Source: Pleurocapsa sp. CCALA 161 (GTDB taxonomy: Bacteria; Cyanobacteriota; Cyanobacteriia; Cyanobacteriales; Xenococcaceae). From it: DNA of 42,664 bases. The translations under genes and the position numbers were made by a program. The stretch is from positions 1 through 42,664 of the forward strand of contig NZ_PVWF01000038.1 of assembly GCF_003003995.1 (NCBI RefSeq), read 5' to 3'. Shown piece after piece: positions 3,101 through 42,664 of the stretch. The notes under the pieces are model-generated. The model saw only the letters and a program-made list of their open reading frames with translations, was not told where the DNA came from and searched no databases. Position 1 is the stretch's first letter. Every line of letters starts with the position of its first letter.

Positions 3101-3580
3101 GATACTTTTTATCCTGACAAAAACTCAATTCGTAAACCTCTTTCCTTAAAAGAGCGTATTTCGGGTCACATTGATAAAGTTCGCACCAAAGGAACAAACC
3201 ACGTCCTAGATCGTGTCAAATGGCGTTTCGAGTTAGGCATGAATACATTTAGGTCGCATTTATACCAAATCGATTGGGTGCGAGAGAATTTTATCGACAC
3301 GACAAGTCGCAATTTTGCTCAAGTTGAACATATTCAATATACACGAGAGTATCAAGCAGTTAATCAAAATTATGTAATACAACCATATCCAGGTCACATT
3401 AACATGTTTCGCGCTACTGATGATATGGACTCTAAACTAGATTGGCAAGAGCTGGCTCAATCGGGTTTGTCTATTTTTGATGTCCCTGGAGAGCATTTGG
3501 AAATACTTCAAGAACCTTATGTTTCAATCTTGGCTAGAAAAATACAGCTAGCGCTACGAGAATCAACGCAGAAAAGATGA
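140..3580 (+). CDS. Nonribosomal peptide synthetase: partial condensation, adenylation, carrier and thioesterase domains
   Basis: A 1146-residue NRPS termination module. Residues 1-260 match only the second half of a condensation domain (NYWQKQLE and FPTDR are visible; no HHxxxDG motif). The adenylation domain (about 280-780) shows YTSGSTGKPKGVML, NIYGQTEGTG, YKTGDLGRYLPDG and SGKVDYRAL. A carrier domain follows with LGGNSLLAA (Ser near 830). The C-terminal thioesterase has GVSFGG (near 960) and would release the product. In the A4 region the Asp that normally holds the alpha-amino group is replaced (SIALIVSARQ), so the substrate may not be a standard alpha-amino acid. There is no good ribosome binding site, and an in-frame stop lies at 119-121 just upstream. 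With an IS end ending near 78, the 5' part of the gene was probably lost; it may not be expressed. Confidence 0.85.
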   Translation: MFYQNNFSSSISNGEINYWQKQLENIPPLLDFPTDRVRSLLVDSEAQIDYPSANIGENLFTFSEDLRQGLQEIAQQETISISIILLSAFQVLLYRYTNQEDIVVGCLNWYDNRQKTEPGILPIRVTLEGNQKFNELLKIVQSQISETSDYVSQPIPTSTTASEAQNSEFRLASLSQMLFRFDSLSSTSEVKSNKKIPEPELFLNIREKSQHLICRIEYDRNLFDATTIQRIFDNYQVLLKSIIANPQSSIASMPLLSSSEQQQVLVNWNQTQAESARQCIHQLFETRVRQNPEAVAIICRGEQLTYGELNAQANQLARYLQTLGVTRDSLVGLCLERSLSMVVGVLAILKAGGAYIPLDISNPPARLAFILEDARVKVLLTQESLLKKLPTQIEQTICLERDWHLITRQPQDNLDETVKSSDLAHIVYTSGSTGKPKGVMLTHGNLSHYAQSLQLALEITPADIYLHRGSIALIVSARQLLMPLAQGATAVIVTAEESRNPLELFELIKRHGVTIVDHVPSFWRNFSAILERQNSDYRKNLLDNQVRLVAAGGEQVTPEIYQCWRETFKPDVKLANIYGQTEGTGVVTIYQIPAQIDRRFKTLPVGRPIPNMRIYLLNSYLQPVPIGVAAEIHISGAGVAQGYLNRLELTAEKFVDNPYVRGERLYKTGDLGRYLPDGSIQFLGRIDRQVNIQGLRIELGEIEAVLSQHQLVQETAVIIRENRLGETLCAYVVPNKIEQPTVEILRSYLQEKLPTYMIPGTFIFLDAFPLTISGKVDYRALSELNVSESLESAIAPRDCLESELVQMLQEILMLKAIGIRDDFIELGGNSLLAARVVTEIEHRYRQKIPVSAVFQASTPEALANLIRRNESIGYPKSFVTIKQGNSRPILFCIHNLGHGLEFYRPLAKYLNTDISLYGLSSFLSDEPYKPHPRNIMGLASYYTPNLQQVQPQGPYYLIGVSFGGVVAYEIAQRLVAQGQEVKFLGLLDTFYPDKNSIRKPLSLKERISGHIDKVRTKGTNHVLDRVKWRFELGMNTFRSHLYQIDWVRENFIDTTSRNFAQVEHIQYTREYQAVNQNYVIQPYPGHINMFRATDDMDSKLDWQELAQSGLSIFDVPGEHLEILQEPYVSILARKIQLALRESTQKR

Positions 3581-3768: not shown

Positions 3769-4258
3769 GACATCATCGATCGCGATCGCATTATCCAAAC
3801 CTTAACTAACCTCCTTAGCAACGCCATCAAATTCTCATCCCCCCAGACTACGGTTACTCTAGATGCCCGCCTCCAAAATGATGATACAGTCAGATTTCAA
3901 GTGCAAGATTGCGGTAGAGGTATTCCTCCAGAACACTTAGAAACAGTCTTTGATCGCTTTCAACAGGTTGATGCTGCCGATTCTTGCGATCGCGGTGGCA
4001 CGGGTTTGGGACTGGCTATTTGCCGTAGTATTGTGCAGCAACACGTTAGATGTGATGATGCCCGTTATGGATGGTTTGGAAACTTTTTCTGAACTACAGG
4101 CTAATTTGGTCACTCGCTCTATTCCCGTAATTTTATTAACGGCAAAAGCTCAACCAGCTGAACTAAAATCTTTTACTCAACTACAGGTGTTTGATGTAAT
4201 CACTAAACCCTACGATCCGTTTAATTTAGCAGACCGCGTAGCTCAAGTTTTGAGTTAA
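3769..4258 (+). pseudogene. Remnant of a hybrid sensor histidine kinase / response regulator
   Basis: From about 3769 one frame reads a histidine-kinase ATPase domain: N box (LTNLLSNAIKFS), G1 box (DCGRGIPPEHLETVFDRFQ) and G2 box (GGTGLGLAICRSIVQQH). Near 4045 the reading jumps by +1 into the middle of a receiver domain (LDVMMPVMDGLETF, then VILLTAKAQ and a KPYDPF motif), ending at the stop at 4256-4258. The dimerisation/His box, the end of the ATPase domain and the start of the receiver are missing. A deletion fused the two pieces out of frame. No intact start is visible, so I call it a decayed gene. Confidence 0.8.
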
Positions 4259-4371
4259 CAACTATTGATTATGATCGATGCAGTTCTATTGCTCAAAATG
4301 CAGCTTCATCAATTATTCAGATTCTTTGTTTAGTATTTACAAAAAGATGTCAGACTACTGACAATTTAGAG

Positions 4372-4785
4372 ATGCTAACCAAGAAATTCTCAATGTCAAT
4401 TGAAACTCAACGTATTTTGTTGATTAATTGCGATTGTGCAATTGAAGAGATGATGCAGCTTTGTTTTGAGACTATTTTTAACTGCAAAGTAATCATAGCT
4501 AGTTCTGGTGTTGATGCCATTGCCAGAGTTTCAACAGGACAAATTGAGGCTATCTTGCTCGATATTGATGAAATTATCCCCGATTTAAGTTGGTCAGAAA
4601 TAATCAAAGATTTACAGCAAAATTCTTTGACCAACCAGATCCCCATCATTTTGTTGACTTCTGCACCTCAATCTCCAGAGATAGTTAAGCTTCAGCAGAC
4701 AAGAGGAATTAAGGCGATCGCCAAATCCTTCGATCTTTTGACCCTAGCTACTCAAATTTATGGATTACTCAACTGGGATGAATAG
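4372..4785 (+). CDS. Single-domain response regulator (CheY-like receiver)
   Basis: A 137-residue protein made of one receiver domain. The phospho-acceptor Asp lies in ILLDIDE, the conserved Thr/Ser in ILLTSAPQ, and the Lys in AIAKSFD. The first acidic pair is weakened to INCDCAIEE, and the usual MPxMDG loop is changed (IIPDLSW), so phosphorylation may be altered. It follows the decayed hybrid kinase and lies 390 bp before the far-red cluster. FaRLiP clusters often carry a small CheY-like regulator (RfpC) here, but this sequence looks more like the common receiver that accompanies hybrid kinases, and I do not assign it to RfpC. The start could also be the ATG at 4393; neither has a strong ribosome binding site. 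Confidence 0.75.
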   Translation: MLTKKFSMSIETQRILLINCDCAIEEMMQLCFETIFNCKVIIASSGVDAIARVSTGQIEAILLDIDEIIPDLSWSEIIKDLQQNSLTNQIPIILLTSAPQSPEIVKLQQTRGIKAIAKSFDLLTLATQIYGLLNWDE

Positions 4786-5172: not shown

Positions 5173-6255
5173 ATGACTACAACTATTGGGCGATCGCAAC
5201 AAGCCGATTTATGGGAGCGTTTCTGTCAATGGGTTACTAGCACCGAAAATCGCCTTTATATCGGCTGGTTTGGAGTACTCATGATTCCCTTACTCAGCGT
5301 TTCCATTTGCGTATTCACCATCGCCTTTATTGGCGCACCTCCTGTAGATATCGATGGAATTCGCGAACCTGTATCTGGTTCATTACTCTATGGCAATAAT
5401 ATTATCACCGCCGCCGTCGTACCTACCTCTAATGCGATCGGCTTGCACTTTTACCCCATTTGGGAAGCAGCATCGATGGATGAATGGCTCTATAATGGAG
5501 GTCCTTATCAAATGATTGCTTTTCACTATATTCCTGCTTTATGTTGCTATTTGGGGCGAGAGTGGGAACTAAGCTATCGTTTAGGGATGCGTCCTTGGAT
5601 TTGCGTTGCTTTTAGCGCACCTGTTGCGGCCACAACTTCAGTCTTTTTAATCTACCCCATTGGACAAGGTAGTTTTTCAGATGGCTTACCTATGGGTATT
5701 AGTGGGACGTTTAACTTTATGTTTGTCTTTCAAGCTGAACATAATATTTTAATGCACCCATTTCATATGTTAGGGGTGGCAGGTGTATTTGGTGGAGCTT
5801 TCTTTGCAGCCATGCATGGCTCTTTGGTTACATCTTCTTTAATTAAAGAAACGACTGAGAGCGAGTCACAGAACAATGGTTATAAATTCGGTCAAGAAGA
5901 GGAAACCTATAACATAGTTGCTGCTCATGGTTATTTTGGTCGCTTAATCTTTCAATATGCCAGTTTCCAAAACAGTCGCAACCTCCATTTTTTCCTAGCA
6001 GCTTGGCCAGTGGTTTGTATTTGGTTTACGGCTTTGGGAATATGCATCATGGCATTTAACCTCAATGGCTTTAACTTTAATCAGTCAATTTTAGACTCTC
6101 AAGGTCGAGTATTACCTAGTTGGGCAGATGTGATCAACCGCGCCAATTTGGGATTTGAAGTGATGCACGAACGTAATGCTCATAACTTTCCTTTAGATTT
6201 AGCCTGTGGTGAGGCAACACCCATAGCACTAACAGCACCAGCAATTCAGAGTTAG
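5173..6255 (+). CDS. psbA3: Far-red photosystem II reaction centre protein D1 (PsbA3)
   Basis: A 360-residue D1 protein of the PSII reaction centre in the thylakoid membrane. It aligns with D1 without length change, so standard numbering applies: Tyr161, Asp170 (SFSDG), Glu189 (QAEHN), His332-Glu333 (MHERN), Asp342 and Ala344 (NFPLDLA) are all present. It can therefore hold the Mn4CaO5 cluster and split water. After Ala344 there is a 16-residue tail that would be cut off by CtpA. Its place beside chlF, psbC2, psbD3, psbB2 and psbH2 identifies it as the far-red D1, which replaces the normal D1 in chlorophyll f-containing PSII. It is the first photosystem gene of the cluster; the ribosome binding site is weak. 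Confidence 0.9.
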
Positions 6256-6276
6256 AGAGATTTTGAGTATTAAATC

Positions 6277-6301
6277 ACCTTCGGTTAATACAGCAATTTT
6301 T
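6277..6301 (+). promoter_or_regulatory. Motif before chlF shared with the psbA3 upstream region
   Basis: Second copy of the element described at 5108-5135, immediately before the AAGGAG ribosome binding site of chlF. It may be regulatory or simply left from the duplication that produced the two psbA paralogs. Confidence 0.25.
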
Positions 6302-6317
6302 AGTAAGGAGTAAGTAG

Positions 6318-7574
6318 ATGATACCGCGCGATTACGTCCTCAAGGATACCTCCATTCGAGGGCAAGCCGCTACGCATAAAGTTAGTGCCAAACTATACGG
6401 TACAAGTACCAAACTATACGGTACAAGCCACAGGCATCGCGAAGCCTACCTAGAGGCTAGTCGCATACTTAGATCTTCAACTAAACCAGATTCTAATATC
6501 CCGACAGTTTTTCAACAATTAGAGCAAATTAATCTGTGGGAGAGATTTTGTCGGTGGGTCACAAGTACCAACAACCGTATTTATATTGGCTGGTTTGGTG
6601 TGTTAATGATTCCGACAATGTTAACTGCCAGTATTGTCTTTATTATTGCGATCGCCGCTGCACCACCTGTAGATATGCAAGGATTAGGTTCGCCTATATC
6701 TGGCTCTTTATTAGATGGGAATAATCTGATCACCGCAGCGGTTATACCTACTTCAGCAGCAGTTGGTTTGCACTTTTATCCAATTTGGGAGGCAGGTTCA
6801 ATTGATGAGTGGCTAGTCAATGGTGGTCCTTATCAGCTCATAGTTCTACACTTTCTGATTGGCATCATTGCTTATCAAGATCGGGAGTGGGAATTAAGCT
6901 ACCGCTTGGGGATGCGTCCTTGGATTTCCCTAGCTTTTACTGCACCTGTGGCTGCTGCTGTCTCGGTATTTATTATCTATCCCCTCGGACAAGGTGGTTT
7001 CTCCGAAGGAATGCCTCTAGGGATTTCTGGGACATTTTACTTTATGTTTCGCTTTCAGGCAGACCACAATATTTTGATGAGTCCGTTTCATCAGTTAGGA
7101 GTAATTGGAGTTTTGGGTGGTGCTTTACTCTGTGCCATGCACGGTTCGATTGTGACTTCTACTTTGATTCGCAATACAAATAAACATGAATCAATTAATC
7201 TTGGCTATAAATTAGGTCAAAAGAAGCCAACCTATAGATTTGATAAATCCCAAGACTATCAGCGCAGCCTGTGGGGATTTAGTTTTCCGAGTTCGCGATC
7301 GCTTCATTTCTTCTTGGCTGCCTTTCCCGTCGCGGGTATTTGGTCGGCAGCGATTGGCGTGGATATTGCGGCATTTGACTTTGAAGGCACTAATTTTCAA
7401 CAACCCACGATTATCAGTCAGGGTAGAACAATTCCTACTTGGATGGACGTTATTTTAGATGCCAACTTGGGTTTATCGGAGACTACAAGGCAAACCGATT
7501 CCTTACCTATTTTTTCTAACTGGCAAATTAATTCAGAACAAGAAATAAATAATTTTCCTACCAATTTACCGTAG
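6318..7574 (+). CDS. chlF: Chlorophyll f synthase ChlF (super-rogue PsbA4) with an N-terminal extension
   Basis: A 418-residue PsbA paralog. The D1 fold is intact ([31 protein letters not shown]), but the water-oxidation ligands are gone: position 170 is Glu (FSEG), 189 is Asp (QADHN), and the C-terminus has [10 protein letters not shown] instead of the His332-Glu333 and Asp342-Ala344 motifs. The sequence [12 protein letters not shown] carries the QD motif known to be needed for chlorophyll f synthesis by ChlF. The enzyme is a light-dependent photo-oxidoreductase in the thylakoid membrane that makes chlorophyll f. About 60 residues precede the region matching the start of D1; they include the repeat [13 protein letters not shown]. 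The ATG at 6318 has a strong AAGGAG site and no other in-frame ATG precedes the D1-like part, so the extension appears real. Confidence 0.9.
6388..6429 (+). repeat. Tandem 21-bp repeat inside the 5' end of chlF
   Basis: Two adjacent copies of CCAAACTATACGGTACAAG plus two bases (6388-6408 and 6409-6429), differing only in the last two bases. They are in frame and encode KLYGTS twice. The nearby imperfect palindrome GCGAAGCCTACCTAGAGGCT (from 6439) looks like a dispersed cyanobacterial palindromic repeat. Confidence 0.85.
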
Positions 7575-7627
7575 GGGCGAACGCCCTAAAGGATTAGCTC
7601 CTTCGTCGCGTCGCCGTTCGCCCCTAC
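7571..7627. repeat. Inverted repeat between chlF and psbC2
   Basis: GTAGGGGCGAACG (7571-7583) and CGTTCGCCCCTAC (7615-7627) are perfect 13-bp arms around a 31-nt loop. The left arm contains the chlF stop codon. This is the GTAGGGGCG-type dispersed palindrome that is frequent in cyanobacterial intergenic DNA. It could act as a processing or attenuation structure in the transcript. Confidence 0.75.
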
Positions 7628-7650
7628 AGACCAACAATTAATAAAAACCT

Positions 7651-9066
7651 ATGGAAACACCATTTACCGATTTAACGATCAATATTACCGCTACGGCGGG
7701 GGATGATATCAATCCAGGGCGAGAAGGCAGAGATCAGGCTTCTACTGGCTATGCTTGGTGGGCGGGAAATGCCCGTTTCATTGACCTTTCTGGCAGATTT
7801 TTAGGAGCGCACGTAGCCCATGCTGGCTTAATTGCTTTGTGGGCGGGAGGAATGCTGCTTTATGAGGTAGCACACTATGACCCAGATCTGCCCATGTTTA
7901 GACAGGGTTGTCTCTTGATGCCTCACATTGCCACATTGGGCTTTGGTGTGGGTCATGGAGGAGAAGTTATCAGCCTATTTCCCTTTATGGCGATCGCCGT
8001 TTTACATTTAATCGGTTCGGCTGTATTGGGTATCGGGGGACTATATCATTCTCTGCGCGGTCCTAGTAAGCTAGCTGGTTTTTATGATTTTGACTGGTCT
8101 GACAAGAAAAAGATCACTGACATCCTCGGATATAACCTAATTGCTTTGGGCATAGGTGCATTACTTTTAGTTTGTAAAGCAATGTTCTGGGGCGGTATTT
8201 ATGACACCTGGCTACCTGGAGGTGGCGATGTCCGTCTAGTAACAAATCCAACTCTCGATCCTCGAGTGATTTTCGGTTACTTTTTCCGTAATCCTCTGGG
8301 TGGAAGTGGCTGGCTCGTCAGTGTTGACAACCTCGAAGATATTATCGGCGGTCATATTTGGATGGGTAGTATCTTAATTGCTGGTGGGATCTGGCATATT
8401 TTGACCGTTCCCTTTAAATGGACTGACAAAGTTTTTATCTGGTCGGGAGAAGCCTATCTTTCCCAAAGTTTGGGCAATATAGCAGGACAGGGATTTATTG
8501 CAGCCATGTTTATTTGGTTTAACAATACTGCTTATCCCAGTGAATTTTATGGACCTACTGTTGCCGAATCTTCCCAAGCGCAATCATTAGTATTTCTAAT
8601 TAGAGACCAAGATTTAGGCGCAAATATTGGTTCGACTCAAGGACCAGTGGGTTTGGGTAAATACTTAATGCGATCGCCTACAGGAGAAATTATCTTTGGT
8701 GGTGAAACCATGCGCTTTTGGGATTTTCGCGGCCCTTGGCTAGAGCCTTTACGGGGAGATCACGGTTTAGACCTAGATAAGCTGCGTAACGATGTTCAAC
8801 CCTGGCAAGTTCGTCGAGCTGCTGAGTATATGGTGCAAGCACCGATGGGGTCAATTAACTCTGTAGCAGGTTTAGCGACTGAAATAAACGGCTTTAATTA
8901 TTTATCGATTCGTACTTGGATGACTGGTTCGCATATTATTCTCGCTTTCTTCTTTCTCGTCGGTCATTGGTGGCACGCAGGGAGAGCAAGAGCGCAAGCT
9001 GCTGGCTTTGAACGAGGACTCGATCGCGATGATGAACCTGTCTTATCAATGGGAGATATTGATTAG
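7651..9066 (+). CDS. psbC2: Far-red PSII core antenna CP43 (PsbC2)
   Basis: A 471-residue six-span chlorophyll-binding inner antenna protein of PSII. The family hallmarks are [21 protein letters not shown] at the start, many membrane-embedded His residues, and [19 protein letters not shown], whose Arg contacts the Mn cluster and whose Glu ligates it. The C-terminal [17 protein letters not shown] is typical of CP43. In ordinary cyanobacterial operons psbC overlaps psbD; here it instead precedes psbD3 by about 400 bp and starts with its own ATG. It is the far-red paralog that binds chlorophyll f in induced PSII. Confidence 0.9.
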
Positions 9067-9087
9067 TTGGGTGGAATGGTGAGGAGC

Positions 9088-9134
9088 AAGTAATAAGTAA
9101 CAAGTAGCAAGTAATAAGTAATAAGTAATAAGTT
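9088..9134 (-). repeat. Heptanucleotide tandem repeat after psbC2
   Basis: About six and a half units of AAGTAAT/AAGTAAC/AAGTAGC. It is the reverse-strand form of the same heptamer family that fills 42315-42664. It lies within the far-red cluster, between psbC2 and the miniprotein at 9260. Confidence 0.9.
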
Positions 9135-9259
9135 AAGAATTTTGCAGGTTTGGTTGGGGAAGATACTCGGAATATTCGTTACTTGTTGCCAAAACAAGAG
9201 CATAACCCAACAGGATGATCAGAATTATCAAGTTAACAAAACAATTAAGGAGATAAAAA

Positions 9260-9382
9260 ATGCAGAATTTTCACAAGGTTTTCAATAGTGTACCAATCAT
9301 GTCCATCGTCACTTTGACTATGGCAATGGCAACCTTAATGTTTATCAGCTTTTTCCTAGCAATTGTTCCTAGTGGAATCTAG
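9260..9382 (+). CDS. Single-span membrane miniprotein (40 residues), faintly PsaJ-like
   Basis: The frame starts after a strong AAGGAGAT site and encodes 40 residues with one hydrophobic span (about residues 11-36). It is too short for most gene finders. The start [12 protein letters not shown] can be laid gap-free on PsaJ (compare [12 protein letters not shown] at 29822), sharing Lys6, Pro12, Leu19, Thr20, Leu26 and Phe32. It lacks the conserved Glu28 and the RFFPD motif of PsaJ. It could be a very divergent PsaJ2, a small PSII subunit or an assembly factor. Its position between psbC2 and psbD3 suggests co-expression with far-red PSII. Confidence 0.6.
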
Positions 9383-9471
9383 CCATTATATTAGGACATT
9401 TTTTTCCCTTTTTCCTTTCCCCTTTTCCTCAAGCTCAACTTTTAAATGTTGTATTTCAACAGGACATTAGT

Positions 9472-10536
9472 ATGACTATTGCAATCAATCGCAATCGCTC
9501 ACAATCAAATATAGGCTGGTTTAAACAGGTCGATGACTGGCTGAAGCGCGATCGCTTTGTGTTTATTGGCTGGTCGGGACTGCTACTCTTCCCCTGTGCT
9601 TATTTGTCCATTGGCGCATGGTTTACAGGAACTACTTTTGTCAGTGCTTGGTATAGCCATGGGTTAGTTAGTTCTTATCTTGAAGGATGCAATATTTTAA
9701 CGGCTGCGGTGTCTACTCCTGCCGATAGTATGGGTCATTCTCTCTTGTTTCTCTGGGGTCCTGAAGCTAACTGGAACTTTACGCGCTGGTGTCAAATTGG
9801 CGGTTTATGGAATTTTACGGCTTTTCATGGAGTAATCGGGCTAATCGGCTTTATGTTGAGGCAGATTGAGATTGCCAGACTTATCGGGATACGTCCTTAT
9901 AATGCGATCGCGTTTTCTGCCCCTATCGCTGTATTTGTCTCTGTCTTTTTGGTCTATCCATTAGGACAATCAAGTTGGTTTTTCGCCCCTAGTCTAGGAA
10001 TAGGTGGAATCTTTAGGTTTGTCCTCTTTTTCCAAGGTTTTCACAACTATACTCTCAATCCCTTTCACATGATGGGAGTTGCGGGAGTCCTAGGCGGGGC
10101 TTTACTCTGTGCCATTCATGGGGCGACGGTACAGAATACTTTATTTAAAGATGCTCAGGCGTTTAATACCTTTGGCGCATTTAGTCCCACCCAAGCAGAA
10201 GAAACCTATTCCATGGTCACCGCTAATCGCTTTTGGTCGCAGATTTTTGGCATTGCCTTTTCTAACAAACGCTGGTTACATTTCTTTATGCTGTTTGTGC
10301 CTGTAACTGGCTTATGGATGAGTGCGATCGGCATGGTGGGCTTGGCTTTTAACCTGAGAGCCTATGACTTTATTTCTCAAGAATTAAGGGCAGCAGAAGA
10401 CCCTGGTTTTGAAACTTTCTATACCAAGAATATTCTGCTCAATGAAGGTTTACGGGCTTGGATGGCACCCCAAGATCAAATCCATGAAGGTTTTCAGTTT
10501 CCTGATGAAGTGTTGCCACGGGGTAATGCGCAGTAA
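9472..10536 (+). CDS. psbD3: Far-red photosystem II reaction centre protein D2 (PsbD3)
   Basis: A 354-residue D2 protein, the partner of D1 in the PSII reaction centre. Clear family signatures are [39 protein letters not shown], the redox Tyr160 region ([16 protein letters not shown]) and the C-terminal [23 protein letters not shown]. The quinone and iron ligands around [22 protein letters not shown] are kept. It is the far-red paralog of the cluster. Its stop codon overlaps the start of the next small gene (TAATG), so the two are probably translationally coupled. Confidence 0.9.
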
Positions 10537-10661
10537 TGGAAAATGTTTTTGAAGGTGCAATCATTGTGCTGATCGGACTAGGGATGTCTTTTCTGGCTGT
10601 CGTGGCAATTCTTTCAGCAGTATTAATTCTTGCCACTATTCCCAAACGCGATCGCGATTAG
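10536..10661 (+). CDS. Single-span membrane miniprotein coupled to psbD3 (41 residues)
   Basis: The ATG overlaps the psbD3 stop by one base (TAATG), which favours translational coupling. The product has a short acidic N-terminus (MENVFEG), one hydrophobic helix (about residues 8-34) and a charged tail (PKRDRD). This gives a probable outside-in orientation with the basic tail on the stromal/cytoplasmic side. It resembles no PSII or PSI low-mass subunit I know; the pattern is faintly like short OadG-type anchors. The context suggests a subunit or assembly helper of far-red PSII, but this is inference. Confidence 0.6.
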   Translation: MENVFEGAIIVLIGLGMSFLAVVAILSAVLILATIPKRDRD

Positions 10662-10736
10662 CCGAAGACTACCATAAAGGGCTACGCTACGCGATCGTTA
10701 AATAATCAATTCTGATCGACAATTGGAGGTTTAAAT

Positions 10737-10943
10737 ATGTCTAATCTGTTCAAATACAAAATCGTTGATGCAGACACTGCAACGGAAGAAAAGGAAGAGC
10801 TGCTCTCTCCGGGCTTAATACCCTATCTCGCTTTTGTTCTAGTTTGCACCATTATGATTACCGTTTTTTCAACCATCGTAATGATCTTAGATTATTGCTT
10901 TCCTGGTTCTCTCGACGGTACATATCTCAAGCTTTTTTTCTAA
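10737..10943 (+). CDS. Membrane miniprotein of the far-red cluster (68 residues), function unknown
   Basis: A 68-residue frame begins after a good GGAGG site and lies 38 bp before psbB2. It has a charged N-terminus with acidic residues (DADTATEEKEELL), one long hydrophobic span (about residues 28-54) and a short tail. The sequence is not PsbH, PsbX, PsbT, PsaI or a high-light-inducible protein as far as I can see. It sits among PSII core genes, so I expect a role in far-red PSII or its assembly. Confidence 0.65.
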   Translation: MSNLFKYKIVDADTATEEKEELLSPGLIPYLAFVLVCTIMITVFSTIVMILDYCFPGSLDGTYLKLFF

Positions 10944-10981
10944 TGCTCGCTTTTTGACAACTAATCTAGAGGAGATAACTA

Positions 10982-12532
10982 ATGGGCTTACCTTGGTATC
11001 GCGTCCATACGTCAGTTTTAAACGACCCAGGACGATTGATAGCCGTTCATTTAATGCATAATGCTCTTTGTGCGGGCTTTGCTGGTTCGATGCTATTGTT
11101 TGAACTGGCTTTATACGACCCCAGTGATGCTGTTCTTAATCCAATGTGGCGACAGGGCTGTTTCTTAATGCCTTTTGTAGCTCGTTTGGGAGTAACCAAC
11201 TCCTGGCAGGGCTGGAATATTATGGGTGAAACCTTTACCAATCCTGGTTTCTGGACTTTTGAAACTGTGGCGATCGCGCATATTATTTTATCGGGGCTAT
11301 CGTTTTTAGCCGCTTGTTGGCATTGGGTTAATTGGGATTTGGTTACTTTCTTTGACGAAGAAGGTCAACCAACCTTAGATTTACCGAGAATATTTGGCAT
11401 TCATCTTTTACTTGCTGGTTTACTCTGCTTCGGTTTTGGTGCTTTCCATCTGACAGGCATTTTTGGCCCTGGGATGTGGGTATCAGACTCCTATGGACTA
11501 ACAGGACATATGCAGGGCGTCGCACCAGTTTGGGATGCAAGGGGATTCGATCCCTATAATCCTGGCGGGGTAGTGGCTCATCATATTGCTGCTGGCATTG
11601 TTGGTATTATTGGCGGACTATTTCACATCGTGGTACGTCCTTCAGAAGAACTGTATAAACTGCTGAGGATGGGTAATATCGAAGGTGCATTAGCTAGCGG
11701 TTTAGCAGTCTTCTTTTTTGCTGGTGCGATCGCTAGTGGTTCGATGTGGTATGGTACAGCAACCACCCCTGTAGAACTTTGGGGACCCACTCGTTTTCAA
11801 TGGGATAAAGGTTACTATCAACAGGAAATCAGTCGTCGAGTAGAAAATAATTTAGCTGCGGGAGATAGTCTTTCTCAGGCTTGGTCGAAAATTCCCGAAA
11901 AGCTGGCATTTTACGATTACATTGGCAATAATCCCGCTAAGGGCGGTCTATTCCGCTATGGTCGCATGGTTGATGGCGATGGTTTACCTCTAGCTTGGCT
12001 TGGTCATCCCATCTTTCAAGATGGCGCAGGGAGAGAAGTAACCGTCAGGCGGATGAATAGCTTCTTTGAAACCTTTCCCACTGTCTTAACTGACGAAGAT
12101 AATATTGTTCGTGCGGATATTCCCTTCCGTAGAGTTGAAGCTGAAAATAGCTTTGAACAAACTGGAGTTATGGTTAGTTTCTACGGTGGACTCTTAGACG
12201 GTCAAACTTTTACTGACCCTGTACAAGTTAAAAAATATGCTCGTCAAGCAGTATTAGGGGAAGCCTTTAAATTTGATACCGAAACCTATAATTCCGATGG
12301 CGTATTCCGCACCAGCAATCGTGGCTTTTTTGCCTATTTCCACGCCTGCTTTGCTTTACTGTGGTTTTTTGGTCATATCTGGCATGGTACTCGTGCTTTA
12401 TTCAGCGATGTCTTTGCAGGTATCGATATCGAACTAGAAGAACAAGTCGAGTTTGGAGTTTGGGCGAAAGTTGGCGATGTTACCAGCCGTAAGAAGCCAG
12501 AAGCTTTAGCAGTTAAAAGTCAATCCCAGTAA
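10982..12532 (+). CDS. psbB2: Far-red PSII core antenna CP47 (PsbB2)
   Basis: A 516-residue six-span chlorophyll-binding antenna protein. It starts with the family signature [19 protein letters not shown] and shows [48 protein letters not shown] and the C-terminal [18 protein letters not shown]. The length is usual for CP47. A GAGGAG ribosome binding site precedes the ATG. It is followed after 24 bp by psbH2, the same pairing as in the standard psbB/psbH region. It would replace CP47 in PSII made under far-red light. Confidence 0.92.
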
Positions 12533-12556
12533 TCAGATCTCCCACAGTAATTAGTA

Positions 12557-12781
12557 ATGAGACAATCAAATTTTGCCTCCAAAAAAACAGCCCCTTTACA
12601 GTATTTCTTTAAGTCGATTAACTCTGAAGCAGGAAGAGTTACTCGCGGTTGGGGAACTACACCAATAATGCTAGGAATCATCTTTTTGTTCGGTCTATTT
12701 CTGCTCATTATTACTCAGATTGTTAATTCCTCAATATTGCTTCAGGGGATGGACATAGATTGGACAAGCTTGAAATACTAA
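12557..12781 (+). CDS. psbH2: Far-red PSII small subunit PsbH2
   Basis: A 74-residue single-span protein. The core ARG motif region reads INSEAGRVTRGWGTTPIMLG, followed by one hydrophobic helix and the tail SSILLQGMDIDWTSLKY, all matching PsbH. PsbH sits beside CP47 and helps PSII dimer stability and the quinone side. The N-terminus is about eight residues longer than in common cyanobacterial PsbH. The gene follows psbB2 closely and is the last PSII gene of the cluster. Confidence 0.88.
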   Translation: MRQSNFASKKTAPLQYFFKSINSEAGRVTRGWGTTPIMLGIIFLFGLFLLIITQIVNSSILLQGMDIDWTSLKY

Positions 12782-12826
12782 CAAACAAAAATTCCAATAT
12801 AAACAATAAAAATCAGGAGAAAACTC

Positions 12827-13303
12827 ATGAGTATGGTTGCTGAATTAATTCTCAATGCCGATAGTGAAGCTCGTTATCTTGGTCCTAAAGAAATACATAT
12901 CTTTCAAGACTTTCTCAAAACAGGAGAACAACGGATGAGAATCGCCAGATTCTTAGCTGAAAATGAGCAAAAGATCGTTCAAAATGGGACAAATAAATTC
13001 TGGGAACGTTGTCCTGTAACCCCTAGCAATAGTGGTGTCGAAAGAAAAACTAATTCCTGTATGCGCGATCAAGGTTGGTATGTTCGCCTAATTGCCTATT
13101 CAGTTATGGCAGGCAGCGAAAAACCCTTAGAAGAAATTGGCACTATCGGTATCAAGGAAATGTATAACTCTTTGGAAATACCAATCCGCAACATCGCTGA
13201 GTGTATGCAGTGCCTCAAAGAAGAGGCTGTATCGATGATGAATGAAGAAGATGCTGCTGAGGTTGCACCCTATTTTGATTTCATCATTCAATCGCTTTCA
13301 TAG
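12827..13303 (+). CDS. apcD: ApcD-like allophycocyanin alpha subunit (far-red paralog, first copy)
   Basis: A 158-residue biliprotein alpha subunit with the globin-like fold of allophycocyanin. The phycocyanobilin-binding Cys lies in NSCMRDQGWYVRL, and the end reads VAPYFDFIIQSLS. Trp in the WY position and the ERCPVTPSNSG segment set it apart from normal ApcA and group it with the other two ApcD-like proteins here. In FaRLiP, ApcD2, ApcD3 and ApcD5 pair with ApcB2 to absorb above 700 nm; I cannot say which of the three this is. A good AGGAG site lies before the ATG. Confidence 0.85.
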   Translation: MSMVAELILNADSEARYLGPKEIHIFQDFLKTGEQRMRIARFLAENEQKIVQNGTNKFWERCPVTPSNSGVERKTNSCMRDQGWYVRLIAYSVMAGSEKPLEEIGTIGIKEMYNSLEIPIRNIAECMQCLKEEAVSMMNEEDAAEVAPYFDFIIQSLS

Positions 13304-13305
13304 AA

Positions 13306-13346
13306 AAACTAATAGCTAATAGCCAATAGCTATTAGCTATTAGTTT
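13306..13346 (+). terminator. Perfect 17-bp stem-loop between apcD and apcB2
   Basis: Arms 13306-13322 and 13330-13346 (AAACTAATAGCTAATAG and its complement) are perfectly paired around the 7-nt loop CCAATAG. There is no long U tract after it. It begins 3 bases after the apcD stop and may be a weak terminator, mRNA-stabilising or processing element that sets the ratio of alpha to beta subunits. Confidence 0.6.
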
Positions 13347-13417
13347 AATGAGTTGCCCAGAATTCAAAGCAGACTTAATCATCAATCCCTTAAATAAAAT
13401 AATCAGGAAATAAAATC

Positions 13418-13903
13418 ATGCAAGACCTTATTACTTCCACAATCAATACTTTCGATGTTCGCGCTCAATATCCCGATAGTGACGCGATGAATCGCTTGGA
13501 AGAATATTTTAGAAGTGGCGATTTACGGGCTAAAGCTTCTCTAGCTATTAGTGCCAATGCTAAATCTATCATTACTAAAGCAGTAGCTAAGTCATTGATG
13601 TACACCGATATTACTGCTCCTGGGGGCAATATGTATACCTGTCGTCGCTATGCAGCCTGTATCCGTGACTTAGAATACTTTTTGCGCTATGCCACCTATG
13701 CGATGTTAGCTGGCGATCCTTCTATTCTCGAAGAACGTGTCCTCAACGGTTTACGAGAAACCTATAACTCTTTAGGAGTTCCTATTGGCGGTACGATGCG
13801 AGCCGTTCAAGCCATGAAAGAAGTTACTGCTGACTTAGTCGGAACTGATGCGGGGAAGGAAATGGGTGTGTATTTTGACTACATCTGTTCTGGCTTGAGT
13901 TGA
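13418..13903 (+). CDS. apcB2: Far-red allophycocyanin beta subunit ApcB2
   Basis: A 161-residue allophycocyanin beta subunit. The chromophore Cys is in [22 protein letters not shown], the methylated Asn site in APGGNMYT, and the end [16 protein letters not shown] matches ApcB closely. It is the single beta subunit of the cluster and would form trimers with the three ApcD-like subunits and the ApcE2 alpha-like domain. An AGGAA site precedes the ATG. The flanking palindromes suggest separate mRNA segments. Confidence 0.92.
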
Positions 13904-13908
13904 TTCTT

Positions 13909-13940
13909 TGTAGGGGGCGATCGGCCGATCGCCCCCTACA
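13909..13940. repeat. Perfect 32-bp palindrome between apcB2 and the next apcD
   Basis: TGTAGGGGGCGATCGG (13909-13924) is followed directly by its exact complement (13925-13940). It belongs to the GTAGGGGCG-type dispersed palindromes, fused here with a CGATCG core. The RNA would form a very stable hairpin and may act as terminator or stabiliser for apcB2. Confidence 0.85.
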
Positions 13941-13972
13941 ACATTGCCATTTTCACAAAATAAATATTAATC

Positions 13973-14449
13973 ATGAGCATTATTACCCGTTCGATTAAGA
14001 GTGCAGATCGCCAAGCACGCTATCTAAATCTGGGAGAGTTAAAAGCTGTTGAGGATTTTTATCAGGGAGGAGAAGATCGACTGCGCCTAGCTCAAATTTT
14101 GGTAGCTAATGAGGCTGAGATTGTTAATAAAGGCAGTCAAAGGTTTTGGCAGCGATATCCTAATACTCCTAGCAATACTGGTAATCCTACTTTTAGAGCT
14201 TCTTGTCTGCGAGATCAAGGTTGGTATTTGCGATTAATTACTTATGCGCTCGTTTTGGGGGATACAGAACCAATCGATAAATCTGGGATTAAAGGTGTAA
14301 AGGAGATGTACCAGTCTCTGGAAATTCCGCTTAAAAACCTGGCTGAATGTATGCGTTGTCTAAAAGAAGTAACAGCAGAAATGCTCAGTCTCAAGGATGC
14401 TGCTGCGATCGCACCTTATTTTGACTATATCATTCAAGGATTTCTGTAG
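13973..14449 (+). CDS. apcD: ApcD-like allophycocyanin alpha subunit (far-red paralog, second copy)
   Basis: A 158-residue alpha-type biliprotein. The chromophore Cys is in RASCLRDQGWYLRL, and the C-terminus reads IAPYFDYIIQGFL. It has the same QRFWQRYPNTPSN signature as the other far-red ApcD paralogs of this locus but is clearly diverged from both. It would pair with ApcB2 in the far-red core. No strong ribosome binding site precedes the ATG, which follows 33 bp after the palindrome; translation may be lower than for apcB2. Confidence 0.85.
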   Translation: MSIITRSIKSADRQARYLNLGELKAVEDFYQGGEDRLRLAQILVANEAEIVNKGSQRFWQRYPNTPSNTGNPTFRASCLRDQGWYLRLITYALVLGDTEPIDKSGIKGVKEMYQSLEIPLKNLAECMRCLKEVTAEMLSLKDAAAIAPYFDYIIQGFL

Positions 14450-14525
14450 AGGCTATTCGCAGTCAGGGCGTTTCGCGTCACTAACTTCCTGTCGCGTAAC
14501 ATCTTTGAAGGAGAAATGTCTCTAC

Positions 14526-14553
14526 AAACAATAAACAATAAACAATAAACAAA
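14526..14553 (+). repeat. Short heptamer repeat before apcE2
   Basis: Three exact AAACAAT units plus one imperfect unit. It fills part of the untranslated region just before the apcE2 start. Confidence 0.8.
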
Positions 14554-14567
14554 ATTAGGTTAAACAT

Positions 14568-16901
14568 ATGAATGTCAATACAGGTGGCGGTAGTCCCGTT
14601 GTTCATCCGCAACTATATCAAACAACACCTCTTGCCGTAATTTCTCAAGCTGAACAGCAGGATCGTTACTCCAAACAAAGCGAACTCAATCGACTCGCTA
14701 GTTATTTTGATTCTGGTACAAAGTTATTAAAAATTGTCGATACCTTGAATCAGAATGCCGATGCTATTGTAGCGGCTGGGGGCGATCGCATTTTCTATGG
14801 TGGTAATTCGATGGATTATTTAGAGAAGCCTAAAGAGTTAGTCGATCTGCCTGGTTATGTAAGACCGATAACTGTTGCTAGTGCTGCGATTGCCAAGGCA
14901 AATGCTGCTCAAAATCAGAATCAAGTTAAAATTTTCTCAGAGTCACAATCTTTAATTAAAGGGCGTACTTTTAACTTTGTCGAATTGCTAATGGAAGCAA
15001 TTTACAGATTGCAAGCCACTGGTAAAGAACCTCTACCTGGTGGATTTAAGCCAATTAATATCTCTCGTTATGGCGAGAGAAGAATGAAACGATCAATGCG
15101 AGATTTGGGGTGGTTTCTGCGCTATATTACCTATGCGATTATCGCTGATAATCCCAGCATTTTGGTAGTAAATGCCAGGGGATTACGGGGCGTAATTCCA
15201 GAAGATGTTACTGTCGCTACGATAGTCGCCCTCAAAGAAATGTGCTGGAAGTCTTTGAGTTATTTTCCTGATAATGAGGAGTCACAAAATACGATTAGAT
15301 ATTATTTTAATATTTTAATCAAAGAATACGAAGTCGAAAAGCCTGCTAATCAACTGCGCGAAGGTATATCTAATGACCAACAGGGACTAGAGTTACCTCA
15401 AAGTTATTCCTTAGCAGCAGAATCACGACCAAAGTTTGTGATGAAACATAACGCTTCGGTGAGAGAAAAACAAGCGGTAGTTAAAGCAGCCTATCGACAG
15501 GTATTTAAATGCGACATCGATCGCACCTACGGCATTACTTTTAAACAATTGGAATCTCAGGTTACAGGTGGCAATACCTCGATTAAGGAATTTATCCGCA
15601 GTTTGGGTAAAACCCGTCTCTATCGTCGCTTGTTTTACGAACCATACACCATTTCTAGGGTGATCGAACTGGCATTTCGTCACTTTTTAGGACGGGGTTT
15701 GAGTTCGATGGAAGAGTTTCAAGATTACTTTGAGATTATTTCTCGTGGTGGTTTACCAGCTTTAATTGATGCTTTAGTAGACTCGGTTGAATATGCTGAT
15801 TATTTTGGGGAAGAAACTGTTCCCTATCTACGAGGTTTAGGTCAAGAAGCCCAGGAATGTCGCAACTGGGGAGCGCAATTAAATCTATTTAAATGTAGTG
15901 CTGCGGTACGTAAAGTTCCTCAATTTGTCACGATGTTTGGCAACTATCAACAACCTCTACCCAATCAGCATCCTTACGGTGTAGGCAACGATCCTCTAGA
16001 AACTCAGTTTGGTACAGTTTTTAAAAGTGAAACCAATAATCCTTATGCTCAACCAGCATCCTTTAATCAAGATCATCACCGTCTGCTGGTACATTCTCGT
16101 TCAAGAATTCAAAATGTAACTAACAATTACTCTTCAGAAAGGATTTTAAAGCAAAGCAAAAGTAATCATGAACATCGGCAGCGAAATATTAATCTCTCCA
16201 ACCATTCTGTTGAAGCCATCATTAAAGGAGTATATCAACAAATTTGGGGACAGCAGCCCTTTTCTGGTCAACATTTAACCGTCGCTGAAACTAAACTAAG
16301 AAATAGTGAAATTAGCGTCCGTGAGTTTGTCCGACAGTTAGCTAAATCCACCTGGTTTCGTAATTTATATTGGGATCACCTGTATATTACTAAAGCGATC
16401 GAGTGTATTCATCGGCGTTTATTAGGTCGTCCTACCTACGGGCGTGCGGAAATGAATCAATATTACGATCTTTGCTCCAAAAAAGGCTTTTATACTTTAG
16501 TTGATGAAATCTTAGACAGTGATGAATATTTAGCAACTTTTGGCGAAGATATAGTCCCCTATGAACGCTACCTTACTCCTAAAGGTTGGGCAATGCGATC
16601 GCTGGCTCAACCGATTAATTGGTCGCAAGCTCAACTAGATCGTCAACACACTGCGGGAGAAGTTGTGGGTCAAAAAATTAGGGAAAATCGCGATCGCCTA
16701 GCCAGATTGGCATCCCAAAGCAATGGTCACGTTCCCAAAGAAATAGTAGAAGCCATACAGACAGCATCTGATGCAGTTGATGAAAATAAAGAATTAATTA
16801 CAGTTACGAACTTAGATCCTGCCGAACCAGAATCACTGGATACGGAAAAACACCCCCAAGAAGAGGAAAGCTATGAGTATAGTCAAACAACTGATTATTA
16901 A
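14568..16901 (+). CDS. apcE2: Far-red phycobilisome core-membrane linker ApcE2
   Basis: A 777-residue linker that holds the far-red allophycocyanin core and docks it to PSII. The N-terminal biliprotein-like domain (about 1-240) lacks the usual chromophore Cys; instead it has RGLRGVIPEDVTVATIVALKEM near residue 210. VIPEDV is the known mark of ApcE2, which binds phycocyanobilin without a covalent bond and so shifts absorption to the red. Two linker repeats follow: about 295-430 (SIKEFIRSLGKTRLYRRLFYEPY) and about 540-665 (SVREFVRQLAKSTWFRNLYW). Two repeats fit a two-cylinder core. The start has only a weak ribosome binding site; the 3' end overlaps the next apcD by 29 bp. Confidence 0.93.
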   Translation: MNVNTGGGSPVVHPQLYQTTPLAVISQAEQQDRYSKQSELNRLASYFDSGTKLLKIVDTLNQNADAIVAAGGDRIFYGGNSMDYLEKPKELVDLPGYVRPITVASAAIAKANAAQNQNQVKIFSESQSLIKGRTFNFVELLMEAIYRLQATGKEPLPGGFKPINISRYGERRMKRSMRDLGWFLRYITYAIIADNPSILVVNARGLRGVIPEDVTVATIVALKEMCWKSLSYFPDNEESQNTIRYYFNILIKEYEVEKPANQLREGISNDQQGLELPQSYSLAAESRPKFVMKHNASVREKQAVVKAAYRQVFKCDIDRTYGITFKQLESQVTGGNTSIKEFIRSLGKTRLYRRLFYEPYTISRVIELAFRHFLGRGLSSMEEFQDYFEIISRGGLPALIDALVDSVEYADYFGEETVPYLRGLGQEAQECRNWGAQLNLFKCSAAVRKVPQFVTMFGNYQQPLPNQHPYGVGNDPLETQFGTVFKSETNNPYAQPASFNQDHHRLLVHSRSRIQNVTNNYSSERILKQSKSNHEHRQRNINLSNHSVEAIIKGVYQQIWGQQPFSGQHLTVAETKLRNSEISVREFVRQLAKSTWFRNLYWDHLYITKAIECIHRRLLGRPTYGRAEMNQYYDLCSKKGFYTLVDEILDSDEYLATFGEDIVPYERYLTPKGWAMRSLAQPINWSQAQLDRQHTAGEVVGQKIRENRDRLARLASQSNGHVPKEIVEAIQTASDAVDENKELITVTNLDPAEPESLDTEKHPQEEESYEYSQTTDY

Positions 16902-17394
16902 TGCTGATGAAGAACTTCGCTATCCGAGTTTAAGCGAAATTAATTTATTACAAAATTTCTGCCAAACGGGAGCAAATAGAATTCGGATTGCGAGAATCCT
17001 AGCTGACAATGAAACCAGGCTCGTACAAAGAGGCTCCCGCAGGTTCTGGAAACGGCGTCCTATTACTCCTAGTAATAGCGGGAATATGAGAAAAACTAAT
17101 TCCTGTCAGCGCGATCAGGGTTGGTACATTCGTTTAATTGCTTACTGTGTGTTAGCTGGAAACAGTCAACCTTTAGACGAAATTGGGATAGAAGGTATGA
17201 GAGAAATGTACCAGTCTCTTGGGATTCCCTTGGGAAACTGGGTTGAAGCCTTAATCTGTCTGAAAGAAGAGGCGATCGCTCTACTAGAAAATGAAGATGC
17301 TGTCGAAGTTATTCCCTATTTTGATCACATTATTCAAGCTCTTGTTAATCCTGGTCCTCCTTACCGTATTAATGATGGCTGGGCAGAATATTGA
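16873..17394 (+). CDS. apcD: ApcD-like allophycocyanin alpha subunit with C-terminal tail (third copy)
   Basis: A 173-residue alpha-type biliprotein, about 14-15 residues longer than its two paralogs because of the tail NPGPPYRINDGWAEY. The chromophore Cys is in TNSCQRDQGWYIRL. Its ATG lies inside the end of apcE2, with AGAGGA before it, which suggests translational coupling with the linker. The tail could mediate a specific contact in the far-red core, for example with ApcE2 or a photosystem; this is inference. I cannot tell whether it is ApcD2, ApcD3 or ApcD5. Confidence 0.87.
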   Translation: MSIVKQLIINADEELRYPSLSEINLLQNFCQTGANRIRIARILADNETRLVQRGSRRFWKRRPITPSNSGNMRKTNSCQRDQGWYIRLIAYCVLAGNSQPLDEIGIEGMREMYQSLGIPLGNWVEALICLKEEAIALLENEDAVEVIPYFDHIIQALVNPGPPYRINDGWAEY

Positions 17395-29290: not shown

Positions 29291-29788
29291 ATGAGAAAAT
29301 TGTTTGCTTTGATATTAGTATTTACGCTTTGGTTTGGTTTTGCACCCACAGCGAATGCTGATGATGTAGCTAATTTAACTCCCTGTGGAGAAAATCCTGC
29401 CTACGTCCAAAAAGCTAAAAATTTCCGCAACACTACAGACGATCCAAACTCTGGTCAAATTAGAGCCGAGCGCTATGCAGAAGCTCTTTGTGGTCCTGAA
29501 GGATACCCCCATTTAATCGTAGATGGTCGCTGGTCACACATGGGAGACTTTTTTATTCCTAGTGTTTTATTCTTATATATTGCTGGCTGGATTGGTTGGG
29601 CTGGTCGCTCATACGTCATTGCAGTTAGAGATGAGAAAAATTCCGAAATGCAGGAGGTTGTGATTAACGTTCCCTTGGCTATTAGCAAAATGTTAGCTGC
29701 TGCTACATGGCCGCTGCTTGCCTTTGGCGAATTTACCAGTGGTAAATTGATTGCCGACGAATCGGAAATCACTGTCTCTCCGCGCTAA
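29291..29788 (+). CDS. psaF: Photosystem I subunit III PsaF
   Basis: A 165-residue precursor with a signal peptide (ends TANAD) leading to the thylakoid lumen, followed by VANLTPCGENPAYVQKA, RYAEALCGPEGYPHLIVDGR and one or two C-terminal membrane spans. The two Cys are usual. It helps plastocyanin/cytochrome docking in plants, less so in cyanobacteria. Its position next to tsaD and psaJ suggests the housekeeping copy, not the far-red paralog. Confidence 0.95.
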   Translation: MRKLFALILVFTLWFGFAPTANADDVANLTPCGENPAYVQKAKNFRNTTDDPNSGQIRAERYAEALCGPEGYPHLIVDGRWSHMGDFFIPSVLFLYIAGWIGWAGRSYVIAVRDEKNSEMQEVVINVPLAISKMLAAATWPLLAFGEFTSGKLIADESEITVSPR

Positions 29789-42263: not shown

Positions 42264-42314
42264 TATCAAAAAAGAGGCGATTTCTCCCTTTAACTGGAAG
42301 TAAAAAAAGCAGCT

Positions 42315-42664
42315 GTTACTTGTTACTTGTTACTTGTTACTTATTACTTATTACTTGTTACTTGTTACTTATTACTTATTACTTGTTACTTGTTACTTAT
42401 TACTTATTACTTATTACTTGTTACTTGTTACTTGTTACTTGTTACTTATTACTTGTTACTTGTTACTTGTTACTTGTTACTTGTTACTTGTTACTTGTTA
42501 CTTGTTACTTGTTACTTATTACTTATTACTTATTACTTGTTACTTGTTACTTGTTACTTGTTACTTATTACTTATTACTTATTACTTGTTACTTGTTACT
42601 TGTTACTTGTTACTTGTTACTTGTTACTTATTACTTGTTACTTGTTACTTGTTACTTGTTACTT
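42315..42664 (+). repeat. 50-unit heptanucleotide array (G/A)TTACTT, running off the window
   Basis: From 42315 to the end the sequence is exactly 50 contiguous 7-bp units, each GTTACTT or ATTACTT, with no other change and no phase break. Single or paired A-type units are set among runs of G-type units. It is of the STRR type known from cyanobacteria. The true length is not visible. Confidence 0.97.

Follow-up and report, generated by a model that had tools for sequence, protein, structure and literature searches.

A far-red photoacclimation cluster in Pleurocapsa sp. CCALA 161, very probably complete and cut into contigs at a damaged seam

Can a cyanobacterium make far-red photosystem II (PSII) and a far-red antenna without far-red photosystem I (PSI), or does a draft assembly merely make it look so? 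The question is raised by a stretch of DNA from Pleurocapsa sp. CCALA 161, an entire contig of 42,664 bp (NZ_PVWF01000038.1, here C136) that is called the window below. At 5173–17394 it carries genes of the far-red light photoacclimation (FaRLiP) cluster, all on the + strand, namely psbA3, chlF, psbC2, psbD3, psbB2, psbH2, three alpha-type allophycocyanin genes, apcB2 and apcE2. This gene list, drawn up in a preliminary description of the sequence, was confirmed. The description also held that PSI genes and regulators were absent, and that they either lay elsewhere in a split cluster or were missing from a strain with far-red PSII and antenna alone. Since the window is one whole contig of a 5.37-Mb draft in 249 contigs (estimated 99.99% complete, with 2.13% contamination), absence of a gene from it means absence from contig C136 and by itself says nothing about the rest of the genome. 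The explanation that we favor with considerable confidence is a complete FaRLiP cluster that was cut into contigs and is damaged at the seam between rfpC and the PSII half, and not a strain without far-red PSI.

The PSI genes were sought in the whole genome with the Pfam model PF00223, which gave five stretches that amount to one psaA/psaB pair on contig C51 and a second pair on contigs C193 and C85. The psaA of this second pair is split by the ends of the two contigs, which share an exact 77-bp end overlap; most of psaA2 is on C85, and C193 carries psaB2, psaL2, psaI2, psaF2 and psaJ2. PsaL, PsaF and PsaJ of C193 exceed the Pfam cut-offs; PsaI scores 16.4 bits against a cut-off of 19.8, and is 94% identical to the copy of genome G227 and 91% to that of Hyellaceae cyanobacterium CSU_1_1 (G249), a member of the same genus. 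A maximum-likelihood tree of 36 PsaB sequences placed the C193 protein inside the far-red cluster PsaB2 clade (100/100), where it forms a group with four sequences from its family (100/100), and the C51 protein in the visible-light clade (100/100). This tree covers sequences other than those of loci L152–L188, of matches spanning fewer than 690 query residues, with less than 60% identity or with stops, and of genes truncated at the edge of a retrieved region, with identical rows merged into one.

The regulators were found next to these genes. On C85, psaA2 is followed by open frames for rfpB, rfpA and rfpC with the expected domains, the lengths being 821, 647 and 122 aa for RfpA, RfpB and RfpC. 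RfpA is 75% identical to four relatives and has the order GAF-PHY-PAS-HisKA-HATPase, the same as the architecture given for FaRLiP RfpA (PMC4658448; here and below, papers are cited from excerpts). Genome-wide, therefore, psaA2, psaB2, psaL2, psaI2, psaF2 and psaJ2 are all present together with intact rfpA, rfpB and rfpC, which refutes the suggestion of far-red PSII and antenna without far-red PSI. A cluster reduced in this manner does exist and work in Chroococcidiopsis CCMEE 010, which shares the PSII and antenna genes, is without psaA2, psaB2, psaL2 and psaI2 (PMC9386421, PMC11424453), and still acclimates (PMC9386421); all four genes are present here, and such a reading of Pleurocapsa sp. 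CCALA 161 is hardly credible. It could be rescued if C85 and C193 were contaminants, against which stands the fact that C85 holds 97–99% identical copies of an rfp remnant in the window. One supposed example of far-red PSII in the absence of far-red PSI thereby falls away, and it illustrates that draft contigs can create such cases. Within the window, absence held for the far-red PSI genes and for intact rfp genes: tblastn with the far-red PSI proteins of this genome as queries gave none of the far-red PSI genes there and only a visible-light psaF (29291–29788) with a psaJ frame after it. It did not hold for regulators altogether, as a remnant of rfpA and rfpC and an intact receiver gene are present.

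This remnant is what had been described as a decayed signalling region upstream of the far-red genes, and it turned out to be a duplicated rfpA–rfpC tail, 97–99% identical to the copies on C85. On the + strand, the 3′ end of rfpA (3775–4045, codons 707–796; 98.9% over 271 bp to L009:7157–7427 on C85) is fused to the 3′ end of rfpC from codon 53 with 89 bp of downstream sequence (4046–4347; 97.4% over 302 bp to L009:7698–7999, also C85), 270 bp having been deleted between them. On its right side the remnant runs into an intact CheY-like receiver gene of 137 aa (4372–4785, + strand; Pfam Response_reg 9.8e-9, and synteny), as rfpC does in G249, and the full copy on C85 runs leftward into rfpA and rfpB, which is the arrangement of relatives. 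Each half of the cluster thus keeps one native border, and an insert would sit between two direct copies. The sequence GCGATCGC, which we take to be HIP1-like, is found at the left border of the duplication.

The insert between rfpC and cheY/psbA3 would measure roughly 7.4 kb, a sum of 2.6 kb of C85 after the repeat, 3.8 kb of the window and about 1 kb of an unseen element, the last figure presuming a TnpB of about 400 aa. It would contain a decayed response regulator, an IS200/IS605-type insertion sequence (IS) split by a DDE-transposase element, and a module resembling a nonribosomal peptide synthetase (140–3580 of the window, + strand; partial condensation, AMP-binding, carrier and thioesterase domains by Pfam), and be flanked by direct copies of the rfpA tail and rfpC, of which the one on the window side has decayed. 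The duplication together with the insert could have originated by single-crossover integration of DNA that carried an rfpA–rfpC piece, or from a tandem duplication into which DNA was later inserted, and the same pattern would be expected of both.

The 1–3% difference between the rfpA and rfpC copies might also suggest a mixed assembly in which each half belongs to a different strain, for which the estimated contamination would leave room. The genome search showed a single occurrence each of psaA2, psaB2, full-length rfpA, apcE2, chlF, psbB2, psbC2 and psbD3, and the remnant in the window, with its deletion and truncation, is not an allelic full copy, so that a mixture is most improbable.

How the halves are connected was judged from the contig ends. 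C85 ends within the reading frame of an IS-type element, in a 77-mer for which the search gave one other place, the end of C195. The window starts with the tail of such an element (1–77, + strand, at the contig edge), and this 77-mer was found exactly in only one other contig, C109 (reverse complement), which starts with it. These searches for shared 77-mers scored 40 of 80 first-look candidates for the C85 end and 40 of 72 for the window start, and reported matches far shorter than 77 bp; similar element ends with 89–90% identity occur on 10 further contigs. The element is presumably of the IS200/IS605 family, to judge from its appearance; no family scan put a name to it. Among the contigs seen, then, two enter the element (C85 and C195) and two leave it (the window and C109). 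On C195 the left flank closes with part of a gene (...QLLEKL), and on C109 the right flank opens with ...RQEDMKHAEEV; when joined at the TTAC target they form one open frame of 76 aa, the best Pfam match of which (DUF892, 4.2e-4, below the cut-off) spans the junction. The pairing of C195 with the window was rejected because no frame is continued. As C195 and C109 rejoin into one frame, C85 is left as the window's partner, and if the copies seen are the only ones, the window probably follows C85 across a single IS copy. Such a join would restore the ancestral order and orientation that is unbroken in G249.

The resulting order would be psaJ2-psaF2-psaI2-psaL2-psaB2-psaA2, facing away from rfpB-rfpA-rfpC (C193 and C85), then the insert, then cheY-psbA3-chlF-psbC2-psbD3, a PsaJ-like gene (see below), psbB2-psbH2 and the apc genes in the window. 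Of the earlier proposal that the genes lie elsewhere in a split cluster, the part that stands is that they are on other contigs; the contig ends would place them directly upstream of position 1, the very location that the preliminary description had said would speak against its reading, and they do so by inference and not by a continuous read. What can be stated plainly is that all of the genes exist, that C193 and C85 share the 77-bp overlap, and that the remnant is a duplicate.

Several points weigh against the join. No continuous sequence crosses the IS element, the scoring of shared 77-mers covered only the numbers of candidates given above, and the rejoined 76-aa frame, for which no convincing relative was found among the loci examined, is suggestive and not proof. 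The smallest among 24 of the genome's own contigs of seen size are six of 3091–3271 bp, from which it appears that contigs shorter than about 3 kb were probably dropped and that further hidden IS copies are possible. Several relatives, moreover, have a truly open seam between rfpC and the PSII half. These points bear on the chief alternative, a truly split cluster in which the half with PSI and rfp genes and the half with PSII and antenna genes are both complete and lie far apart, with the Rfp proteins acting in trans. It would agree with the placement of the halves on different contigs whose facing ends carry IS-type sequence, with hidden copies of the element, and with relatives in which the halves are apart or rearranged (G135, flipped and with a full rfpA on another contig; G342 and G227, on separate contigs). 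Relocated PSI genes are also in print, psaF2 and psaJ2 in Chroococcidiopsis thermalis PCC 7203 and psaA2, psaB2, psaL2 and psaI2 in Calothrix NIES-3974, so that, together with the reduced cluster, split or reduced clusters are already known (PMC9386421). Against it, once the contig ends are paired, no partner seen other than C85 is left for the window, and joining the two brings back the ancestral order and orientation. A true split is on balance unlikely, and the contiguous cluster with an interrupted seam is preferred.

The Rfp system would switch on both halves of the cluster in trans, and the interrupted seam would be functionally silent. RfpA has been proposed to sense far-red light and to signal, perhaps via RfpC, to the activator RfpB, and deletion of rfpA, rfpB or rfpC abolishes the transcripts of the five cluster genes tested, which fits regulators that act on all parts of the cluster (PMC4658448). 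The Pleurocapsa locus adds to a pattern in which inserts, flips or separation have opened the rfpC–PSII seam in several genomes of this and nearby groups, as expected if the Rfp proteins work in trans.

The relatives come from an RfpA search of 388 genomes, all of this order and taken from a larger group; regions were used from 17 other genomes whose match was judged orthologous. Several belong to the same family or lie near it. Among these is G249 (L110), which has the same order, unbroken from psaF2 to the last apcD, with a gap of 150 bp between rfpC and cheY and neither insert nor remnant. Identities to this genome are 82–98% for most structural genes, 63% for psaF2, 70% for the PsaJ-like gene, and 58–73% for the rfp genes and cheY; in G249, psaF2 is partial and psaJ2 is not seen at the contig start, and the matches of psbB2, apcE2 and rfpB each come in two pieces. 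In G303 and G315, about 5.5 kb with other open frames, one of them ferritin-like, lies between rfpC and cheY, and in G227 and G342 the PSI–rfp and PSII halves are on separate contigs. In G135 the PSI–rfp half is flipped to the other end, where rfpB and rfpC are accompanied by an rfpA reduced to about 107 bp; another contig has full rfpA, rfpC and the tail of rfpB (L098/L099, L041), an arrangement suggestive of another regulator-block duplication within the genus, the second, and of subsequent reciprocal loss. Hyella patelloides LEGE 07179 (G162; L043, L101) has far-red psaA2, psaB2, psaL2 and psaI2, rfpB, rfpA, rfpC and cheY, and apcE2, chlF, psbC2 and psbB2 were not found in its assembly at the thresholds used, so that it is either the mirror image of a cluster without PSI or an assembly gap.

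Among the known systems, the clusters of Leptolyngbya JSC-1, Chroococcidiopsis thermalis PCC 7203, Chlorogloeopsis fritschii PCC 9212 and other strains have the same 17 photosynthesis paralogs, rfpA, rfpB and rfpC, and the same RfpA domain order (PMC4390838, PMC4658448); the present locus differs by its G249-type order and by the probable insert between rfpC and cheY/psbA3 with its decayed rfpA–rfpC duplicate. In Calothrix NIES-3974 (G270, L132) the PSI genes were not found within 10 kb of rfpA, a gap that corresponds there to the published relocation (PMC9386421), whereas here it is probably due to the IS-laden insert.

A wider scan of named genomes for rfpA, of which the best 80 matches were kept (at least 79 loci) and the first 44 (L110–L153) profiled, gave an RfpA match of at least 50% in 43 loci, 28 of them with at least 9.9 kb on both sides. 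Within 10 kb, 18 of these 28 have PSI and PSII genes, three only PSII, one only PSI, and six no PSI, PSII or antenna genes, in counts where some loci share an organism or duplicate genomes of the first search (L130 and L143 are both Mastigocoleus testarum), L152 matches the kinase half only, and psbA3 was counted from 60% identity, so that a visible-light psbA counts as PSII. Five loci of Calothrix/Dulcicalothrix (L128, L129, L142, L144, L147) have rfpA and rfpC, and four of them rfpB; within 10 kb none has a far-red gene for a photosystem or the antenna. For two of the genomes concerned, G352 and G379, searches for apcE2, chlF and psbC2 also gave nothing.

The PSII and antenna half in the window, all on the + strand, begins with psbA3 for far-red D1 (5173–6255; 94% to the G249 cluster copy) and chlF (psbA4) for the chlorophyll f (Chl f) synthase (6318–7574; 82–87% to three cluster copies of the same genus), followed by psbC2 for far-red CP43 (7651–9066), psbD3 for far-red D2 (9472–10536), psbB2 for far-red CP47 (10982–12532) and psbH2 (12557–12781). 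NCBIfam models place psbA3, psbC2, psbD3 and psbB2 above their cut-offs as psbA, psbC, psbD and CP47, and Pfam accepts psbH2 as PsbH (1.6e-18), so that the far-red PSII set of FaRLiP (psbA3, psbB2, psbC2 and psbD3, with psbH2 optional) is found in the window. In NCBIfam, chlF scores 509 against the 596 of the psbA model; ChlF has YQDREW, the QD site, at residue 186, and its C-terminus differs from that of PsbA3 and is unlike that of a water-oxidising D1. The antenna genes are an alpha-type allophycocyanin gene (12827–13303), named ApcA2/ApcD5 by its position upstream of apcB2 following PMC4390838, apcB2 (13418–13903), an ApcD-like alpha-type gene (13973–14449), apcE2 (14568–16901) with VIPEDV at residue 209, and a second ApcD-like alpha-type gene (16873–17394) that overlaps apcE2 by 29 bp. 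Pfam accepts them as Phycobilisome; their scores are below the NCBIfam ApcA/ApcB equivalog cut-offs, which may fit paralog status. VIPEDV in ApcE2, which is accompanied by ApcB2 and ApcD-type subunits, and the QD motif in ChlF serve as markers of the system (PMC7608106, PMC9386421). The CheY-like receiver upstream has relatives (39–59% identity) that adjoin rfpC and/or psbA3 in several genomes, and it is not named within the rfpA/rfpB/rfpC set in the passages of the FaRLiP literature consulted.

One gene in this half had been overlooked. Between psbD3 and psbB2 lies an unannotated frame of 68 aa (10737–10943, + strand), absent from the preliminary list and here called PsaJ-like from a sub-cut-off Pfam match to PsaJ, a family profile and its position. 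Pfam PF01701 gives 12.9 bits against a cut-off of 22.4 and does not accept it as PsaJ; of four further members, one scores 15.3 bits and three have no match. A profile of eight members, searched against the PDB, returned PsaJ chains first (6pnj_J 5.6e-6, 9eys_J 8.7e-6, 7s3d_J 1.4e-5). GTY is found near the C-terminus of all eight aligned members, and the copy of G148 has RTY. On 6pnj_J, which we take to be the chain that carries the published PsaJ2 numbering, residues 39–43 are QYGTF, with Tyr40 within QYG. In PsaJ2, residues 39–43 are a far-red-specific five-residue insertion, in which Tyr40 hydrogen-bonds Chl f at site B30 (PMC10694217). The PsaJ-like proteins keep the GT(Y) end of this insertion and carry D, S or T where PsaJ2 has Tyr40, so that a Chl f contact of the PsaJ2 type is unsupported.

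The gene is directly upstream of far-red psbB2 in 14 of the 18 distinct genomes in which the psbB2 start is covered, seven of the 14 having been in the search profile and G303/G315, G148/G197 and G270/G385 being close pairs. It was not found upstream of psbB2 in L127, L136, L145 and L150, nor at the genome's own canonical psbB (L215); Fischerella thermalis PCC 7521 (G349, L139) is among the strains with an orthologue. The copies of G270 and G385 score 41 and 35 bits, a level that some true psaJ2 match (up to 38 bits), and their assignment therefore rests on position. This genome has a true psaJ2 as well, next to psaF2, and in L115 the two genes are about 1 kb apart. Over the 37 C-terminal codons, the nonsynonymous and synonymous rates (dN, dS) are 0.09 and 0.48 against G249 and 0.08 and 0.59 against G227; selection looks purifying. 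With its linkage to psbB2 rather than psaF2, the gene may encode a new small far-red PSII subunit that derives from PsaJ, or its product may serve far-red PSI as an alternative PsaJ, a tentative idea that we consider possible yet rather doubtful. The gene is a concrete candidate for an undescribed far-red photosystem subunit.

No account of a PsaJ-like gene in the PSII half was found in the passages of the FaRLiP literature consulted. A "conserved hypothetical protein" is drawn in a cluster figure (PMC4390838), and a small protein of 48 residues is placed downstream of psbH2 (PMC9325196). An unidentified single-helix subunit was modelled in the far-red PSII structure of Synechococcus PCC 7335, where by mass spectrometry no unannotated hypothetical protein accounts for it (PMC8689208), and it is missing from a later dimeric far-red PSII structure (PMC9843442).

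Two side readings were discarded. An Rfam IsrR match on the minus strand of psbC2 (8095–8281) was rejected as an antisense RNA, since the model also matches six of six control loci (canonical psbC of G162 and G249 with 187 and 178 bits, above the score in the window, psbC2 of G249, and three of the genome's own isiA-like loci) and tracks CP43/IsiA coding sequence. Loss of visible-light psbC and psbD was considered as well, because canonical psbC was not found anywhere in the draft, nor a full canonical psbD. It was rejected given that C91 ends exactly in the tail of canonical psbD (51401–51509 of 51509, 92%), and that G135, G227 and G162 likewise lack a full canonical psbD and have their canonical psbC matches no more than 200 bp from the end of a contig. 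The missing genes are probably explained by repeat collapse, together with the contig cut-off at about 3 kb. At its far end (42314–42664) the window is closed by a short tandem repeat with a period of about 7, judged by the spacing of self-matches, and related copies are found in the psbC2–psbD3 gap (9087–9133) and in the psaL2–psaB2 gap (L008:2205–2242).

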